NCBI RefSeq assembly: GCF_000336775.1
Contig: NZ_AOLJ01000024.1
Coordinates: forward strand, 1 to 64,000
Direction of reading: 5' to 3'
DNA from: Haloferax gibbonsii ATCC 33959
GTDB lineage: Archaea > Halobacteriota > Halobacteria > Halobacteriales > Haloferacaceae
DNA length: 64,000 bases
Positions 3,223 through 62,861 of the stretch are shown here, piece by piece; the stretch's first letter is position 1; the number at the start of each line of letters is the position of its first letter. The notes under the pieces were generated by a model. The model was not told the DNA's origin. It ran no database searches and saw only the letters and a list, made by a program, of their open reading frames with translations. A program made the translations under genes and the position numbers.

Positions 3223-4962
3223 TCAGTCGACCGAGTCGGGTCGGTCCGCGGCCTCGACGGCCGCGAGCGGGAGTTCGATGACGAATACGCTCCCCCGGGG
3301 TTCGTTGTCCTCGATATGCACGGTGCCGCCGAAGTTGGTGACGATTGTCTCGACGAGGTACAGTCCCGTTCCGGTGCCGGGGCTCTCTAACCCTTTCGCG
3401 CCCTTCCCGAAGACGACCGACTTTTGTTCGTCGGAGATTCCGGGGCCGTCGTCGGCGATGCGGACGGTGACGCGCCCGTCGTCCGCCGCCGCCGAGACGG
3501 CGACCGACGGCTCGTCGCGGTCGCTGTGGACGACCGCGTTCTTCAGGACGTTCACGAACACGGAGTCGAGCAGGTCGTTGGCGGACACCGTCGCGGACGG
3601 GAGGTCGGCGACCGCGAACGTCGCGTTCGGGTGCCCCTCGCGAACGTCTTCGACGGCCTCCCGGAGCGTGGCGCCGACGTCGAGGTGACGACGGCGCTCG
3701 TCGTCGTTCGTCGCGCGCATCAGCTGTCCGAGCACGTCGGTGAGGTCGACGGTGTTGAGCGCCCGCCGGAGCGCGGTCTCCAACTGCGACCGCGCCTCGT
3801 CGGACAGCGGCTCGTGTTCGAGGACGATGTCGATGTACGCCGTCACGAGCTGCATGTCGTTTCGGATGTCGTGGCGGACGATTCGGTTCAGCACCTCCAG
3901 TTCGTCGTTTCTCGACTCCAGGGCGAGTTCGTAGTGCTTCCGGGGCGTCACGTCCCGGACCGAGACCACCCACCCGAGGGGGTCGCCGGCGCGGTCGAGC
4001 GGGATGCGCGTCAGTTCGACGTAGCGCTCGCCCTCGACGAGCACGTCGCACGACGAGTGCTCGCCGTCGAGGTCGTCGTCGAGGTCGCCGTAGTTCGGGA
4101 GGGCCTCGCTCGCCGGACGACCGAGGAGGGGGTCGCCGGTTCCCAACAGCGGCCGGACGTGGTCGTTGACGTGGACGACGACCCCGTCGGCGTCGAGGAC
4201 GACGAGGCCGTCAGCCGAGTGCGCGCCGGCGGTCGCGTAGGCGAGCGGGAGGATGTCGAGGAGCTTGTAGCGGTAGACGGCGATGCCGAACGTCACCGAG
4301 GGGACCGCGAGCGAGGCGGGGATGAGGTTGACGCCCCCGGCGAGCGGCGGGGTGTGGGTGAGTTCGAGCGCGGCGACGACCGACGGAACGAGCATCCCGA
4401 CGATGAGGAGCGTTGCCTGCGTCCGGTAGGGGCGGTCGAGTTCGAGCGCGTACTGACCGATGATGCCGAGTCCGAGAAACAGCAGGACGAACCCGTAGAC
4501 GAGGCCGAACACGCTCACCGGGCCGTCGGCGACGGAGAGTACGGCCACGCCGTCGACGGTCGACAGCTCCCAGCCGGTGTAACCCAGTTCCAGCGGGTTG
4601 ACAAAGAGGACGGCGAGGAACACCGCGGGGACGACGTACAGCGACGCCACCACGTGGCGGTCGAGCAGCTCCCGGCGGTCGGTGTACGCGAGGGCGAAGA
4701 CGAAGAACGTCGGCGCGGCCGTCATCGCCCCGACGTGGAGGAGCTTGTACGCCAGCAGTTTCGCGCCGGGGTCGACGAGGAACAGCTTGACCGCCGTCGT
4801 CGCGGTCCAGAAGGCGACGGCGGCCGTCAGCACGGCGAACGAGACGACGGTCGGGTTCCGCCCGCGGCGGCGGACGAACTGGACGGCGTAGGCGGAGAGG
4901 ACGCCGGCGACCACCGCCGCGAAGACCATCGGGTAGGCGTAGGCGGTGTGCTGCCAGTTCAT
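3223..4962 (-). CDS. Membrane sensor histidine kinase (7TM-PAS-HK)
   Basis: 579 residues. Residues 1-230 form about seven hydrophobic segments of the His-kinase 7TM sensory module. A PAS domain covers about 245-340 (DGLVVLDADGVVVHVND). The phospho-acceptor H-box is RIVRHDIRND with H364. The ATPase domain has an N-box at N474 (VNVLKNAVVHSD), then DDGPGI and GTGTGLYLVETIV. All catalytic elements are intact, so it should autophosphorylate. No response regulator is adjacent, so it is an orphan kinase. Unlike the kinase at 26.6-27.9 kb, it has no insertion after the N-box. The signal sensed is unknown. Confidence 0.92.
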   Translation of the reverse strand: MNWQHTAYAYPMVFAAVVAGVLSAYAVQFVRRRGRNPTVVSFAVLTAAVAFWTATTAVKLFLVDPGAKLLAYKLLHVGAMTAAPTFFVFALAYTDRRELLDRHVVASLYVVPAVFLAVLFVNPLELGYTGWELSTVDGVAVLSVADGPVSVFGLVYGFVLLFLGLGIIGQYALELDRPYRTQATLLIVGMLVPSVVAALELTHTPPLAGGVNLIPASLAVPSVTFGIAVYRYKLLDILPLAYATAGAHSADGLVVLDADGVVVHVNDHVRPLLGTGDPLLGRPASEALPNYGDLDDDLDGEHSSCDVLVEGERYVELTRIPLDRAGDPLGWVVSVRDVTPRKHYELALESRNDELEVLNRIVRHDIRNDMQLVTAYIDIVLEHEPLSDEARSQLETALRRALNTVDLTDVLGQLMRATNDDERRRHLDVGATLREAVEDVREGHPNATFAVADLPSATVSANDLLDSVFVNVLKNAVVHSDRDEPSVAVSAAADDGRVTVRIADDGPGISDEQKSVVFGKGAKGLESPGTGTGLYLVETIVTNFGGTVHIEDNEPRGSVFVIELPLAAVEAADRPDSVD

Positions 4963-6329: not shown

Positions 6330-7304
6330 TCAGAACAGCGCTTCGGACTCGTCGAGCACTTCGGCGGGGCCGCCGACGCCCCACACGTCGGTTTCGACGC
6401 CGCAGTCGGCGACGGCTTCCTCGACGCGGTCGACGTGTTCCTCGGTGGTGTTGACGTAGACGCTCGCGCCGGTGTCGGTCGAGAAGTAGACCGGCACGTC
6501 CTCTTCGTTCCGGAGCCTGCGGACGGCGTTGAAGACGGCGATGGTGCGCGGCTGCCAGTAGACCCAGCCGGCGGGCCCGGTCATCGTCGTCGCCGCGAGC
6601 GACAGCGAGTCGTGCTCGGCGAGTTCGAAGGCGGCGTCGAAGTCGGCGTCGTACAGCGCGTCGCGCATGTCGTCTATCTGGGCGTGGATGTGGGCCATCC
6701 GGGCCTGGAACATGTGGCTGTCGGCGGCCTCGGCGTGGGCCTGCTCGGTCTCCTTGTAGGCGGGGACGTGCGCGGCGACGATGCGCAGGTCGTCTTCGAG
6801 GTCGGTCTCGATGCGCTCGGAGCGGCAGTCGGTGTCGTTCATCCCCGAGTAGAGGTGCGAGACCGCGCCCGTGACGGCGCGGGCGGCGGACGCCGACCCG
6901 CGGCGGGCGATGGTCGAGACTTCGGGATGCGTCATGTCGAGGTCGGCCGCCTCGGCGAGCGCCATCGCGGCCGCGGCGAACCCGGACGCCGACGAACCGA
7001 ACCCGATGTTCGAGGGGAAGGAGTTCTCGCTTTCGAGGCGGACGCGGTGGTCGAAGTCGGCCAGCTCGCGGACCCGGTCGACGACGGCGCGGATGCGCTC
7101 CGCGCCCCGGCCCTCGACTTCCTCGCCGCCGATGACGTAGACGTCTTCGTCGGCGTCGGGGAGGAATTCGACGGTCGTCTTCGTGTGGCTCGGGGCCGTG
7201 CAGACGCTGATGCTGTCGTGGTACGGCATCCGTCGCTCCGTGTCTCGCATCCCGTGATACTTCACGAGGCCCTGAATCGGGTGGGCCTTGGCGGTGGCCT
7301 TCAT
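6330..7304 (-). CDS. mvaD: Phosphomevalonate decarboxylase (archaeal mevalonate pathway)
   Basis: 324 residues of the GHMP-kinase-fold mevalonate-diphosphate decarboxylase family. The start is the ATG at 7302-7304 (MKATAKAHPIQGLVKYHG). The glycine/serine phosphate loop is PSNIGFGSSASGFAAAA, and YFSTDTGASVYV is the C-terminal GHMP motif. In Haloferax volcanii the homologue was shown to decarboxylate mevalonate 5-phosphate, giving isopentenyl phosphate that isopentenyl phosphate kinase completes; this is the alternate archaeal route to isoprenoid lipids. Assigning that specificity here rests on close family resemblance. It is followed on the same strand by the FAD oxidoreductase and preceded by a long non-coding G/T-rich region. 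Confidence 0.9.
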   Translation of the reverse strand: MKATAKAHPIQGLVKYHGMRDTERRMPYHDSISVCTAPSHTKTTVEFLPDADEDVYVIGGEEVEGRGAERIRAVVDRVRELADFDHRVRLESENSFPSNIGFGSSASGFAAAAMALAEAADLDMTHPEVSTIARRGSASAARAVTGAVSHLYSGMNDTDCRSERIETDLEDDLRIVAAHVPAYKETEQAHAEAADSHMFQARMAHIHAQIDDMRDALYDADFDAAFELAEHDSLSLAATTMTGPAGWVYWQPRTIAVFNAVRRLRNEEDVPVYFSTDTGASVYVNTTEEHVDRVEEAVADCGVETDVWGVGGPAEVLDESEALF

Positions 7305-7560
7305 GTTCGAACGCCCGTCGGACTCGGGGTTAAACGTCCCGATAGGTGTCGACACCGGCGGGTAACGGGTACAGTCGGTCGGAAATCGAGTGCGCGCCGG
7401 CGGGACGGCCGGCGCGGGTCGGTCGCAACGGTGCGCAGGAAGGACGCACGTTCTCCCTCTCCAGCGGGAGGCGGTCGAGTTCGATACGGTGGGTCGCTCG
7501 TTCGGTTACTTGGGTAGTCGTATCGTGTTGGCTGTCTCGTGATTGATTCGCTGGGTTCGG

Positions 7561-7697
7561 TTCGATTGGTTGGCTGGTTAGTCGAGTTCGATGCGGGCGG
7601 TTCGTTACGATGCGGGCGGTTCGTTACGATGCGGGTGGTTCGTTACGATTCGATTGGTTGGCTGGTCGTTCGAGTTCGGTGCGGGTGGTTCGTTGCT
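7561..7697 (+). repeat. Short tandem and direct repeats
   Basis: A 19-bp unit, GATGCGGGCGGTTCGTTAC, occurs three times head to tail at 7590-7608, 7609-7627 and 7628-7646. The third copy has one C-to-T change, and a fourth diverged copy lies at 7679-7697. An 18-bp block, TTCGATTGGTTGGCTGGT, flanks the array at 7561-7578 and recurs at 7649-7666. The two nested periods suggest slippage or unequal recombination. Copies are directly adjacent without spacers, so this is not a CRISPR array. Confidence 0.9.
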
Positions 7698-25179: not shown

Positions 25180-26595
25180 ATGTCCACAGACGAGAACGAC
25201 ACCGCCGAGGAGTCCTCGGCGAGCCCACGGACCCAGTCCGTGGACGTGGTGGTCGTCGGCGCGGGAACCTCCGGCTGTTACGCCGCCGCCACCATCGCGA
25301 ACGCGGGCTACGACGTGACCATCGTCGAGCGAAAGTCCGCGGAGGAAGCGGGGCACATCGCCTGCGGGGACGCCCTGAAGGGCGCGGACGCCTTCCCCGA
25401 GGCGATTCCGAAGTCGAAAATCGAGCCCGCGTTCACCAACACCGAGGTCGACCACGGCCGCTTCGAGATTCCGCAGGAGGACACCGTCCTCGATATCCCG
25501 GTCCCCGGCGAACTCGCCGTCATCGACCGCTGGGAGTACGGCCGCCTCATCATCGAGGGCGCGGACGAGGCCGGTGTCGAACTCCACTACGACACGGTCG
25601 TCCAGGACGTGAAACAGGACGACGACGGCACCGTCACCGGCATCGTCGGCAAACACGACGGCGAGGTCGTCGAGTACGACGCCGACATCGTCATCGACGG
25701 CGCGGGCTCGCTGTCGCTCCTGCAGGACAAGGTGGACTTCTCCGACGCCACCTTCGACACGAACGTCTCCTACCAGCACTTCTCGTCGGCGTACCGCGAG
25801 GTCGTCGAGGTTCCCGAACCCGTCGAGTGGTCCGACGCGCTCGTGTTCAAGCCGGCCGAGGTCGCCGCGGGCTACGTCTGGTACTTCCCGCGGACCGAGA
25901 CCGAAATCAACGCCGGTCTCGGCTTCCAGATGACGGAGGAGCCGATGAAGCTCGTCGACGACCTGAAGAAGGACCTCCGGGAGCGCCCCGAGTTCGAGGG
26001 CGCGGAGGTCATCGACAAGCTCGGTGCCGCGCTCCCGACCCGCCGGCCCTACGACTCGGCGACCGCGCCGGGCTACATGGCCGTCGGCGACGCCGCGGCC
26101 CACGTCAACCCGACGACCGGCGGCGGCATCGCCGGCGCGGCCTACGCCGGCAAGTACGCCGGCGAGCAGGCCGCAATCGCGCTCGACGCGGGCGACGTGA
26201 GCGAGGAGATGCTCTGGCGCTACAACCAGCGCGTCATGGACCACTTCGGCGGCCGCTACGCCAGCCTCGACGTGTACAACATCCTCTCGACCGCCGTCGA
26301 CGTGGACGACCTGATGGGCCTCATCGCCTCCATCCCCGGCGAGAAGCTCGCCGAGGCGCTCTACTCCGGAACGACCTCGTTCGGCCCCGTCCTCCTCGCG
26401 CAGACCGCGGCGTCGAGCTACGGTCACTGGAGCCAGATTTACGAGTTCTTCAAAATCAAGCGCCTCGCCGACGAACTGCTGGCCCACTACGGCCGCTACC
26501 CGACCCGACCGAGCGCCCTCGAGGGCTGGAAGGTCGAGCGGGACCGCATCATGGACGACATCTACGAACTCACGGGCGCGGACCCGAAGTACTGA
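25180..26595 (+). CDS. Geranylgeranyl reductase-family FAD oxidoreductase
   Basis: 471 residues. The FAD-binding fold [29 protein letters not shown] begins near residue 23. The middle contains [21 protein letters not shown], and the FAD-closing motif [34 protein letters not shown] lies near residue 290, both typical of the GGR family that saturates the geranylgeranyl chains of archaeal ether lipids or menaquinone tails. This one is longer than the canonical ~400-residue digeranylgeranylglycerolipid reductase, so it may be one of several haloarchaeal paralogues. Its 3' end overlaps the convergent kinase gene by 26 bases. Confidence 0.88.
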
Positions 26596-27892
26596 CCTCG
26601 GACTCCGCCGCGAACGAGACGTTTCGGAACTCGAACCGGGCACCCCCGTTTTCGCCGTCCGTCGCCGCCACCTCCCAGCCGTGCGCGTCGGCGACGCCGG
26701 AGACGATAGCGAGGCCGAGGCCGGTCCCCCGCGAGTCGGTGCTGTAGCCCGACTCGAAGATGCGCTCCCGTTCTTCCGGTGGGATGCCGGGGCCGTCGTC
26801 CTCGACGAAGAAGCCGTCTTCCAGCGGACCGACCCGGACGTTGACGCCGGGCGTTCCCCCGTCAGTGGCGTCCGGCACCGGTCGTCTGACCCCCGGATTC
26901 GGTGCCTCGTCGGCCGACGGTCGACCACCTGCCGCGCCGCGCTCGACGGCGTCAGACGCGGTCTGGTCGCCTGTCGAACTGCGTTCGACAGCGTCACCGG
27001 ACACAGTCCGGTTGCCTGTGGAACCGTGTTCCACAGCGTCGTCGGATGAAATCCGACTGCCCGTGGAACCCTGTTCCACAGCGTCGTCGGGACCCTCCCG
27101 ACGGCCTGTAGAACCGTGTTCCACCGAGTTCCGAAACAGGTTCTCGAAGACGGCGGTGAGCCGTCCCCTGTCGGCGAGGAGTTCCGCGTCGGCCTCGACG
27201 GTCAGGCCCGACGCGCCGAGACTGGTGTTCGTCACCGCGTCCGCGGCCACGGTGGCGAGGCTGACGCGCTCGACCTCGCCGACCGACTCGCCGGCTCGGG
27301 CGAGCTGTAACACGTCTTGGATGAGCGCCTCCATCCGGTCGTGGGCGTCGGCGACCGTCGAGAGGTGCTCCGTCCCGTGGCCGTCGCGGGCGAGTTCGAG
27401 CCGCATCTGGGCGACGTTCAGCGGGTTTCTGAGGTCGTGCGTGATGACCGACGCGAACTGGTCGAGCCGGTCGTTGCGGCGGCGGAGGTCCGTCTCGCGG
27501 GCGTCGCGGTGGGTCGACCACCGGACCGCGCCGACCGCGAGCGCGGCGGACCCGACGAGAAGCGCTCCGTCCTCGAAGACGAGCGTGAACGCCTCGGGCT
27601 GGACGACGACCTCGTCGACCGCGTCGCTGACGGCGTAGACGGCGACCAGCGCGGTCCCGACGTACAACGGCCGCCAAATCGTCTGCACATCGCGGACGCT
27701 CCCGACGACGAACGCGCCGGCGAGCGGAATCGGAACCAAGAGGAGTTCCACGGCGAACCGGAGCCAGTGAACCTCGGGGCTGTCGGGGAAGACGGCGACT
27801 TGGACGACCGCGACGCCGACGGCGATGCCGACGACTGCGAGACCCGGACGCAGGTCTGCGTCTTCGGTCGATTCACCTCCGAGGAGCCCCAT
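26570..27892 (-). CDS. Membrane histidine kinase with a repeat insertion after the N-box
   Basis: 440 residues. The N-terminus has about four membrane helices (residues 15-125). The H-box is [15 protein letters not shown] with H152, and the N-box is [13 protein letters not shown] with N255. Residues 259-345 are an insertion built from 15-residue repeats ([15 protein letters not shown]-like, four copies). The ATP site then resumes at VNVRVGPL, followed by DDGPGIP and GTGLGLAIV. Catalytic residues are intact. The repeat lies in the flexible ATP-lid region and seems to have grown from the N-box tail itself. No response regulator is adjacent. The gene converges with, and overlaps by 26 bases, geranylgeranyl reductase. 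Confidence 0.92.
26953..27125. repeat. 45-bp palindromic repeat array inside the kinase gene
   Basis: There are two alternating series of hairpin-forming palindromes, each with a 3-base loop. Series a is centred at 26981, 27026, 27071 and 27116, for example TGTCGAAC-tgc-GTTCGACA and TGTGGAAC-cgt-GTTCCACA. Series b is centred at 26959, 27004, 27049 and 27094: CAGAC-gcg-GTCTG, ACCGGAC-aca-GTCCGGT, GTCGGAT-gaa-ATCCGAC, CGTCGGGA-ccc-TCCCGACG. Each series has a period of exactly 45 bp, so a palindrome occurs every 22-23 bp. Arm sequences differ between copies, yet pairing is kept. Confidence 0.95.
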
Positions 27893-60845: not shown

Positions 60846-62861
60846 TCACGCTCGCGGGAGCGTGACGACGAACGTGGCTCCGCCGCGGTCGTTGTCCTCG
60901 ATTGCGACCGTCCCGCCGTAGCTCTCAACGATTTCGCGGACCAGAAACAGCCCGAACCCGTTACCCGGATTCGACAGGTCCTCGATGCGCTGGTCGACGA
61001 TGCGGTGTTTCTCCTCGTCCGAGACGCCCGGGCCGTTGTCGGAGACGCGGAGTTCGACCGCGTCGTCGCCGGCCCCAACCTCGACTTCGACCGCCGGGTT
61101 CGGCTTGTCGTTGTGCTGGACGGCGTTTTTCAGCAGGTGCTCGATGACCTCGTCCAGCAGGTCGTCGGCGACGACCGAGACGTCGGGGAGCCGTCCGACT
61201 TCGACGCTCGCGGCGTCGGTCTCGCTCCGCAGCGACTCCGCGCCGTGGTCGACCGCCTCGTCGATTCGACGCGGTCGGAACTCGTGGGACTCGCGCTCGA
61301 CGATGACCTTCATGAACGTCCGCATCGTCCCGACGAGTTCGGTCATCTCGCGGACGCGCCCCTGTATCGTTTCGAGGTGGGTCAGCCCCGCGTCGTCCAC
61401 GAAGTCCTCGACGATGTCCGCCCGCGCGCCGACCACGTTGAGCCCGTTGAGGAGGTTGTGGCGGATGATGCGGTTCACGAACTCCAGTCGCTCCTGTTCG
61501 CGCCGCAACTCCCGCTCTCGCTCCTTGCGAGCGGTGATGTCGTGGCCCTCGAGGACCAGAAGCGACACCTCGCCGTCGTCGTCGCGGACCGGGGTGACGG
61601 AGAAGTCGATGACGACCGGCCGGTCGGTGTTCTGTCGCTCGATTTCGACCTCGTAGCGGACGAACTCGCCGTCGGCCGCGCGGTCGAGCGCGGCCCGGAG
61701 GTCGGCGATTCGCTCGTCGTCGCCGCGCCACCACGGCGTCTCCCACGCCCGCCGTCCGACGATGTCGTCGCGGTCGCCGTCCACGAGGTCGAGCGCGGCG
61801 TCGTTCACCCGGAGGACCGTTCCGTCGGGCTCGACCAGCCCGATGTACTGGAACGTGCTGTTGAACACCGCGTCCAACTGTCGCTCGCGGCGCTTCCGGT
61901 CGGTCATGTCGCGGGTCACCTTGGCGAAGCCGATGACCTCACCGGTGTCGTCGGTCAGGGCGGTGATGGTGACAGACGCCCAAAAGCGAGTGCCGTCGGC
62001 ACGGACGCGCCACCCCTCGTTTTCGGCTCGGCCCTCGGTCCGCGCTCGGTCGAGAAGGCGCTCTGGCAGGCCGTCTTCGGCGTCCTCGTCGGTGTAGAAC
62101 GTCTCGATGTGTTCGCCGAGTATCTCCTCCGTATCGTAGCCCTTGATGGCCGCCGCGCCGCGGTTCCAGCTCTCGACGCGACCCGAGGCGTCGAGGCGGA
62201 ACAGCGCGTACTCCTCGATGTCCTCGACGATGCGCGAAAACGCCTGCTCGCGGCGTTCGAGTTCGCGCTCGCGCTCCCGCCGGACGTGGGTGTCGATGCC
62301 GTGGGCGACGGCGTGGCCGAGATTCGAAATCGGCTCGGCGAGCTCCGCGGTGAACGCCCGCTCGTGTTCGGCGTACATCGTGAGAACGCCGTAGCGCGCG
62401 TCGTCGTAGACGAGCGGCACCGACGCCGCCGAGCGGTAGCCGCGTTCGAGCGCCGGTTCGCGGAACGGCCCGAACGCCGGTTCGTCGGCGATGCTGTGGG
62501 TCGCCTGCACCGCGTTCGACCGGACCGCGCGGCCGACCGGGCCGTTTCCCTCGGGGCGCTCCGCCGACACCGACACGTCTATCTCGTCGAGGTAGCCGTC
62601 CTCGACGCCGGCCCACTCGGTCGGCTCCACGTCGCCGGTCGCCTCGTCGACGACGCCGACCCACGCGAACCGGAGTTCGTCGGTCTGGACGAGTCGCTCG
62701 CAGACCTGCCGTTCGATGTCCGCGCGCCCGCCGGCGTCGACGATGGCCTCGTTCACGTCCGCGACGACCTCGTTGAACGTCGCGAGGATGTCGAGTCGCT
62801 GGCGCAGTTCGCGCTCCGTCGCAGACGGGTCGTCGACCGACTGCGGAGCCCCGTCGGTCAT
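60846..62861 (-). CDS. GAF-PAS-PAS sensor histidine kinase
   Basis: 671 residues, soluble. GAF at about 20-190, PAS1 at 205-325 (IVEDIEEYALFRLDASGRVESWNRGAAAIKGYDTEEILGEHI), and PAS2 at 325-445 (LDAVFNSTFQYIGLVEPDGTVLRVNDAALDLVDGDRDDIVG, with a PAC segment). The H-box is FVNRIIRHNLLNGLNVVGA with H468. The N-box is EHLLKNAVQHNDKPN, then DNGPGVSD and GNGFGLFLVREIVESYGG. All kinase motifs are intact. No membrane helix, so it senses cytosolic cues such as redox or light-linked signals. It is likely co-regulated with the bat-type regulator gene 160 bases downstream. Confidence 0.92.
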   Translation of the reverse strand: MTDGAPQSVDDPSATERELRQRLDILATFNEVVADVNEAIVDAGGRADIERQVCERLVQTDELRFAWVGVVDEATGDVEPTEWAGVEDGYLDEIDVSVSAERPEGNGPVGRAVRSNAVQATHSIADEPAFGPFREPALERGYRSAASVPLVYDDARYGVLTMYAEHERAFTAELAEPISNLGHAVAHGIDTHVRRERERELERREQAFSRIVEDIEEYALFRLDASGRVESWNRGAAAIKGYDTEEILGEHIETFYTDEDAEDGLPERLLDRARTEGRAENEGWRVRADGTRFWASVTITALTDDTGEVIGFAKVTRDMTDRKRRERQLDAVFNSTFQYIGLVEPDGTVLRVNDAALDLVDGDRDDIVGRRAWETPWWRGDDERIADLRAALDRAADGEFVRYEVEIERQNTDRPVVIDFSVTPVRDDDGEVSLLVLEGHDITARKERERELRREQERLEFVNRIIRHNLLNGLNVVGARADIVEDFVDDAGLTHLETIQGRVREMTELVGTMRTFMKVIVERESHEFRPRRIDEAVDHGAESLRSETDAASVEVGRLPDVSVVADDLLDEVIEHLLKNAVQHNDKPNPAVEVEVGAGDDAVELRVSDNGPGVSDEEKHRIVDQRIEDLSNPGNGFGLFLVREIVESYGGTVAIEDNDRGGATFVVTLPRA

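Follow-up and report, generated by a model that had tools for sequence, protein, structure and literature searches.

A coding palindromic element of 45 bp probably expanded in tandem to form the hairpin array of a haloarchaeal histidine kinase

Rickettsia palindromic elements, according to the available excerpts of two reports, are 105-146 bp in length, form one long stem-loop and are also located in intergenic regions and RNA genes (PMC2229807, PMC2996958). The repeat analysed here lies in a 64,000-nucleotide stretch of haloarchaeal DNA, hereafter referred to as the window. It resembles the Rickettsia elements in that palindromic DNA is translated in frame as part of many unrelated conserved proteins and is apparently tolerated there. 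However, compared with the elements as those excerpts present them, it is distinctly different in its length of 45 bp, its two short 7-3-7 hairpins, its freely varying arms, its tandem expansion in kinases and its archaeal host.

PARCEL elements are likewise tandem coding repeats with DNA dyad symmetry, for which an exchange between genes has been proposed (PMC2996958). As the available part of that report describes them, they are 25-residue amphipathic domains with imperfect dyads in ORFs without assigned function, whereas the haloarchaeal units have 15 residues, are hydrophilic and form near-perfect 7-3-7 hairpins; the same part also cites archaeal coding palindromes. In the mitochondria of Nematomorpha, inverted repeats are also kept inside functional genes; however, they reach 284 bp, occupy conserved protein regions and, in the excerpts of the report, are not accompanied by a dispersed unit (PMC6649704). 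In the template-switch quasipalindromes of yeast, the arms are made identical, the loops are flipped and the amino acids are changed as a consequence. Arm homogenisation, a feature of template-switched quasipalindromes, was also observed in the haloarchaeal hairpins. Nevertheless, the yeast cases in the available text concern single loci, with spacer inversions only where the arms exceed 9 bp and with no dispersed unit (PMC8604942).

The literature search, whose scope left most subscription journals outside, returned no description of the haloarchaeal repeat. It is set apart from the Rickettsia and PARCEL elements by its host lineage, its size and architecture, the free variation of its arms and its tandem growth at a single active-site motif. 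We consider it probable that the array in the window arose when a coding palindromic element of 45 bp expanded in tandem, and that this element sits in frame in many haloarchaeal genes, is non-autonomous, has its hairpins kept at the DNA level and carries its peptide as a tolerated passenger. By analogy, it would work like a Rickettsia palindromic element; homology is not claimed.

The kinase gene and its hairpin array

The histidine kinase gene (26570-27892, minus strand) encodes 440 aa with predicted N-terminal helices, a HisKA domain (aa 143-201) and a HATPase_c Pfam stretch (aa 361-423), and the Pfam search of this kinase gave no further family. HATPase_c is split by the array, which is placed directly after the N-box NSVEHG (aa 255-260; 27113-27130, minus strand), whose N255 and H259 are invariant across 37 aligned kinases. 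In the AlphaFold2 model made with these 37 kinases (pTM 0.51), the ATPase-domain blocks beside the insert had a pLDDT of 75-93. The insert itself (aa 262-346; 26855-27109, minus strand) had a pLDDT below 50 almost throughout and no secondary structure. As had been stated in the preliminary description, the other two kinases of the window have no insert: in the one near 3450-3552 the G1 box comes directly after the N-box, and in the one near 61040 the alignments abut across the site, where the N-box regex was unmatched.

The preliminary description had also reported an in-frame palindrome array in this gene, and the arm pairs that it quoted are correct. On the gene strand (minus for all hairpins of this array), a near-perfect hairpin A, GTGGAAC-acg-GTTCTAC (27108-27124), lies on the N-box with 6/7 Watson-Crick pairs and a G.T. 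It is followed by hairpin B CGTCGGGA-ggg-TCCCGACG (27085-27103, 8 bp), hairpin A GTGGAAC-agg-GTTCCAC (27063-27079, 7 bp), hairpin B GTCGGAT-ttc-ATCCGAC (27041-27057, 7 bp), hairpin A CTGTGGAAC-acg-GTTCCACAG (27016-27036, 9 bp), hairpin B ACCGGAC-tgt-GTCCGGT (26996-27012, 7 bp), hairpin A CTGTCGAAC-gca-GTTCGACAG, which codes for VERSST (26971-26991, 9 bp), and a decayed hairpin B, CAGAC-cgc-GTCTG (26953-26965, 5 bp). There are thus six perfect stems of 7-9 bp, all with loops of 3 nt. Hairpin A overlies VEHGST, hairpin B overlies the spacer, and the two alternate in each 45-bp unit; TRF gave a period of 45 with 3.5 copies at 26969-27124.

The number of stem bases in the insert was 47, compared with a mean of 12.4 (maximum 42) in 2000 synonymous sequences drawn with the codon usage of the window and a mean of 9.7 (maximum 37) in 2000 synonymous permutations within the insert. 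The DNA folding energy of the whole insert (-68.0) was not extreme in relation to the codon-usage synonyms (mean -58.9, sd 4.9, minimum -75.8). Furthermore, the Ser of VEHGS was never encoded by AGY in 186 protein-found cases, while 26% of the Ser codons of the window are AGY. Chance or codon bias as the source of the palindromes was ruled out by the synonymous-shuffle tests together with the covariation tests given below.

In the genome to which the window belongs, seven places matched the array DNA at E <0.001, one of them a half unit, and all were in kinases, directly after the N-box. In its genus, the places found with the A-hairpin pattern were all kinase arrays (67/67); of these, the fetched loci accounted for 30 (26 recognised by regex and 4 by reading), ten additional loci for 12, and arrays that had already been read for 25. 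The insert peptide was present in 125/293 genomes of the order, from 43/87 genera, and the other 168/293 genomes gave no hit. In a sample of the phylum it was present in 25/294 genomes, all 25 from the same order. A palindrome-blind unit pattern, which assumed a fixed 45-bp spacing and a TCN serine and missed other unit lengths, gave 70 stretches in the genome collection (84,980 species), all with haloarchaeal titles. VEHGST was found in 50/50 clusters of at least three hairpins, a count that bears on clusters and not on single elements. Array-bearing kinases were also noticed on plasmids of Haloferax alexandrinus and H. lucentense (L293, L294), which are predicted to be non-mobilizable.

The units in kinases have 15-17 residues, with one of 14. 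In L041, L197, L209 and other loci whose units have 16 codons (e.g. SPRSQAPEDA), a separate class of hairpins was noticed, with arms of 6 bp and a loop of 10 nt. The 10-nt loop was present in 29/145 spacers with stems of at least 6 bp, and these loops look alike (TCGCAAGCTC and similar). In the L057 kinase, another tandem repeat (PGTDDH) stands after the array, and the loop seems to accept unrelated repeats.

Unit numbers in the N-box arrays change rapidly by gain and loss, and stretches are shared among the kinases of one genome. Across 15 genomes of the genus, the window kinase has orthologs with either no unit or several. The ortholog in G298 is identical over 255 residues, minus exactly 90 bp, and at a site where the G299 ortholog carries two units that of G196 has none, a difference that fits either gain or loss. 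Moreover, exact runs of 82-92 nt were common to kinases of one genome, whose comparable flanks are 63-76% identical. This comparison covered six genomes from a hand-made list; L033 and L142 had no such stretch, and for the 82-nt pair (L003/L005) it used the downstream flank only. In this same pair, which lies on C15 and C21 of the window's own genome, one array holds N and one contig, C21, begins inside an array; therefore, draft assemblies may misstate the number of units.

Paired changes in the hairpin arms

Within hairpin A, Val and Ser face each other with their third bases (V3-S3), as do Glu and Gly (E3-G3), and the base before Val faces the third base of Thr as the outermost pair. Since these facing third bases are largely synonymous, selection or copying at the DNA level can be separated from protein selection. 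V3-S3 was Watson-Crick in 285/324 units compared with 143.6 expected, E3-G3 in 280/324 compared with 161.5, and the outermost pair in 254 compared with 175.3. The observed A pairing was reached in 0/2000 within-genus shuffles, and non-partner control pairs were flat; this test used 96 distinct cases from the named loci only, with genus labels assigned by hand. For hairpin B, stems of at least 6 bp occurred in 145/194 distinct spacers, with 67 different arms, compared with 13.2 expected (maximum 20) from synonymous permutations. In the standard B spacers (122 distinct), 802/854 cells were paired versus 575 expected, the pairing ended sharply at 7 bp, and in some longer spacers each arm was three bases longer. 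Both hairpins keep pairing while their sequences change, with no overall preference for G-U.

That such paired changes go beyond what protein selection predicts had been claimed in the preliminary description, and this is borne out by V3-S3 and by the B stems, both far above expectation. The check named there, in which inserts that keep the peptide but lose the palindrome would speak against the claim, did not refute it, and synonymous shuffles did not pair equally well. At the level of a single gene, the orthologs of one kinase displayed all four V3-S3 pairs (GTC..TCG, GTG..TCC, GTA..TCT and GTT..TCA) with VEHGST unchanged; two further orthologs of this kinase had imperfect hairpins and an altered peptide (VEHSST, VEHGSA). 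An ortholog of a second kinase showed a matched double change in A, and 2/3 B hairpins there had a mismatch. The share of perfect A hairpins depended on the place in the array, being 0.78 for the first, 0.63 for internal and 0.21 for the last ones, and the N-box hairpins of several orthologs of the window kinase carry a mismatch.

If the tandem repeat in kinases were selected for its peptide, the palindromes would be a by-product of codon choice, and it is true that VEHGST is conserved and that its commonest codons make the palindrome. However, synonymous sites covary, and copies outside kinases keep their hairpins with other peptides. This explanation is already contradicted by the present data and is the least credible of those considered.

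Selection of mRNA hairpins that regulate kinase expression would be consistent with the stable local stems in the coding strand, but it is hardly more credible. Mismatches compatible with G.U were not favoured overall: in hairpin A, G.T was found 41 times (146 expected) and A.C 41 times (143 expected), and in hairpin B, 17 times (84 expected) and 21 times (92 expected), respectively. These nearly equal sums of G.T and A.C combine pairs that behave differently: the outermost A pair favours T.G (26 versus 6) and E3-G3 favours A.C (27 versus 12). The tolerance of G-U in stems that marks structured mRNA was therefore absent overall, with the outermost A pair as the exception. Furthermore, the 45-bp unit is also present in unrelated genes. 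Because G.T was tolerated no more than A.C overall, the data point to hairpins kept at the DNA rather than the RNA level. The earlier suggestion that selection or copying acts on DNA or RNA hairpins is thereby shifted towards DNA.

Neighbouring hairpins avoid identical arms, an alternation that the mobile-element explanation does not account for. Adjacent A hairpins had equal arms in 33/179 cases compared with 76/108 at distance two, and adjacent B hairpins in 15/76 compared with 27/45; for each type, this was reached in 0/2000 permutations. Such avoidance, together with the identical runs of 82-92 bases between kinases, would be in line with a selected DNA-hairpin element that makes the kinase N-boxes an exchange point, in which selection keeps each hairpin folding alone. 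Nevertheless, the 168/293 genomes without a hit make the element appear dispensable, and single copies in housekeeping genes do not suit a role in kinases. We regard this explanation as quite improbable.

Copies in other genes and the proposed mechanism

The assumption that the repeat is restricted to kinase N-boxes was overturned when the 34/230 loci missed by the regex were read. Among these 34, L167 was of the TrmB type, L008, L018, L019, L020, L030 and L230 had no VEHGST-like peptide, and the rest were N-box arrays of the kinase type, several of which were duplicates. Pfam identified L167 as a TrmB-type regulator; it contains three units, MDEDD[45 residues]AIEALED, while its eleven orthologs in the genus read MDEDDAIDALE or similar without an insert, a difference of 135 bp. 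The TrmB copy and its like raised the odds of a mobile element and lowered those of a repeat confined to kinases. The genus of L167, G074 and G181 is probably Halorussus.

A DNA search with the TrmB insert found three more genes in the same genome, and the hairpin-B pattern gave 17 places in 9 of 18 genomes of the G074 genus. Long ORFs contained 15/17 of these places, all read in the same frame, and these ORFs, 13 in all from 8 genomes, were not kinase-like: ValS (valine-tRNA ligase), PurA (adenylosuccinate synthase) in two genomes, the second assigned by 85% identity, a GNAT enzyme, an enoyl-CoA hydratase, a carboxyl transferase, Usp (universal stress protein), DUF7319, PurK, MutS, a phosphohexomutase, TrmB and one without a family match. 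Hairpin A, which was absent from the search pattern, was perfect in 12/17 places with nine different arms, had 6/7 pairs in three, 5 in one and 0 in one. The two places outside long ORFs (L328 and L330), one of which has no hairpin A, are possibly intergenic or decayed copies. Two separate elements with different A hairpins (AARSASSSRTGSDDA and DAQGASSSRTGSDDA; L325 and L331) were noticed in one 459-aa ORF without a family match.

Copies of the element in unrelated genes are single or tandem, and empty orthologous sites differ from the filled ones by exactly one unit or a multiple. In G074, the sites in PurA, the carboxyl transferase, DUF7319 and PurK are empty, and the filled genes of relatives are longer by exactly 45 bp, in frame, e.g. 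CAG GAC[ACC...GAC]GGA compared with CAG GAC GGA. The unit consists of (A/G)CC, a 7-3-7 hairpin A, five bases (GAGCA-like), a 7-3-7 hairpin B and GAC. The codon in front of it is GAC (Asp) or a similar one, and its translation is a hydrophilic peptide (...S-x-R-x-x-S-D-D). The GAC present at either side may reflect a target duplication of 3 bp, or simply microhomology. These in-frame copies in unrelated genes and empty orthologous sites uphold the analogy with Rickettsia palindromic elements that had been proposed for the kinase array. The accompanying idea that the array was seeded from the N-box itself is retained as one possibility; it is no less likely that the unit reached the N-box from outside, because it occurs with other arms in non-kinase genes.

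The dispersal survey covered one genus and plasmids. With a 45-nt query, three plasmid genes of Natrinema, Halomarina and Halolamina (annotated as hemolysin family, merA and alkaline phosphatase family) carried the element in frame with 14/14 pairs. A second plasmid query retrieved one unannotated record, three genes of the kinase type and, once more, the hemolysin-family gene of Natrinema. Viral contigs gave 0 stretches and the phage collection no match. A unit scan of 1.2 Mb of G074 found 11 places compared with 2 in shuffled DNA (both strands); by eye, three of the 11 were elements (Usp, TrmB and phosphohexomutase), one more lay in the same TrmB array, and the rest were chance-like. In 400 kb of the window's own genome, the scan gave 2 unit-like places compared with about 1 in shuffled DNA, neither of them convincing. 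A variant unit was found in L320, which we take to be threonine synthase, and its sole comparison is a distant Haloferax gene.

In the mechanism that we propose, the non-autonomous element would move as one unit and land in frame, and the machinery acting during the move or duplication may recognise or copy the folded DNA hairpin rather than its sequence, so that the arms could drift yet stay matched. Template-switch repair may help to keep them matched. Copies out of frame, or those read in other, less hydrophilic translations, would presumably be purged by selection, and the peptide would be tolerated in surface loops, in line with the low pLDDT of the kinase insert. At the kinase N-boxes, the unit may have multiplied, and recombination would spread units among kinases. 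We tentatively extend this, with somewhat more doubt than confidence, to a 45-base mobile element recognised by shape: any 7-3-7 hairpin pair in register would move, its arms drifting in matched fashion, would enter in frame after Asp codons and add fifteen residues to housekeeping enzymes across haloarchaea, and would multiply at kinase N-boxes with unlike neighbours so that each hairpin folds alone.

An explanation without transposition has also to be weighed, in which template switching and slippage make and keep perfect units, and rare microhomology recombination spreads them to other genes. Template switching is known to homogenise arms and flip spacers, as described in the available text of PMC8604942. 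Exact loop flips in hairpin A were found in two clear cases, VEPCST between perfect arms in L052 and L262. Moreover, the insertion points are flanked by GAC, and GAYGACGCCRTCGA is common to N-box regions and TrmB as an example of microhomology. However, exact single insertions of 45 bp with different arms in many unrelated genes and the sharp 7-bp edges argue against it, and loop inversions in hairpin B were not above chance (8 versus 5.5 expected). We therefore consider it unlikely, and the mobile element remains the preferred explanation.

If this is true, archaea would have a mobile element of very small size that is read in frame, with arms that drift yet stay matched, and DNA structure would dictate amino acids in enzymes that include ValS, PurA and MutS. 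The filled and empty sites among close relatives would offer a measure of how proteins tolerate ready-made inserts of fifteen residues, and Haloferax is genetically tractable.

Further repeats in the window

The window contains a single 45-bp element (25201-25245, plus strand) that had been missed in the preliminary description. It is located at the N-terminus of the gene next to the kinase (25180-26595), which we take, by sequence, to be a flavoprotein reductase, and it reads ACC-[GCCGAGG-agt-CCTCGGC]-GAGCC-[CACGGAC-cca-GTCCGTG]-GAC, with 14/14 pairs. The window protein reads MSTDEND[[15 protein letters not shown]]VVVVGAG, whereas the G074 ortholog reads MATHECDIVVVGAG, without the element and with 15 codons fewer. 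The element is common to three Haloferax relatives. In the 614,617 bases of the window and the named loci, six two-hairpin places were found away from VEHGST arrays; four of them were this reductase element and its Haloferax orthologs, and the others were in L081 and L112.

Another repeat of the window was observed at 7589-7649, a near-perfect tandem repeat with a period of 19 (CGATGCGGGCGGTTCGTTA), 3.2 copies and 97% matches. It is located in a G+T-rich stretch upstream of a minus-strand ORF (6330-7355) and is covered only by short ORFs of 106-110 aa.
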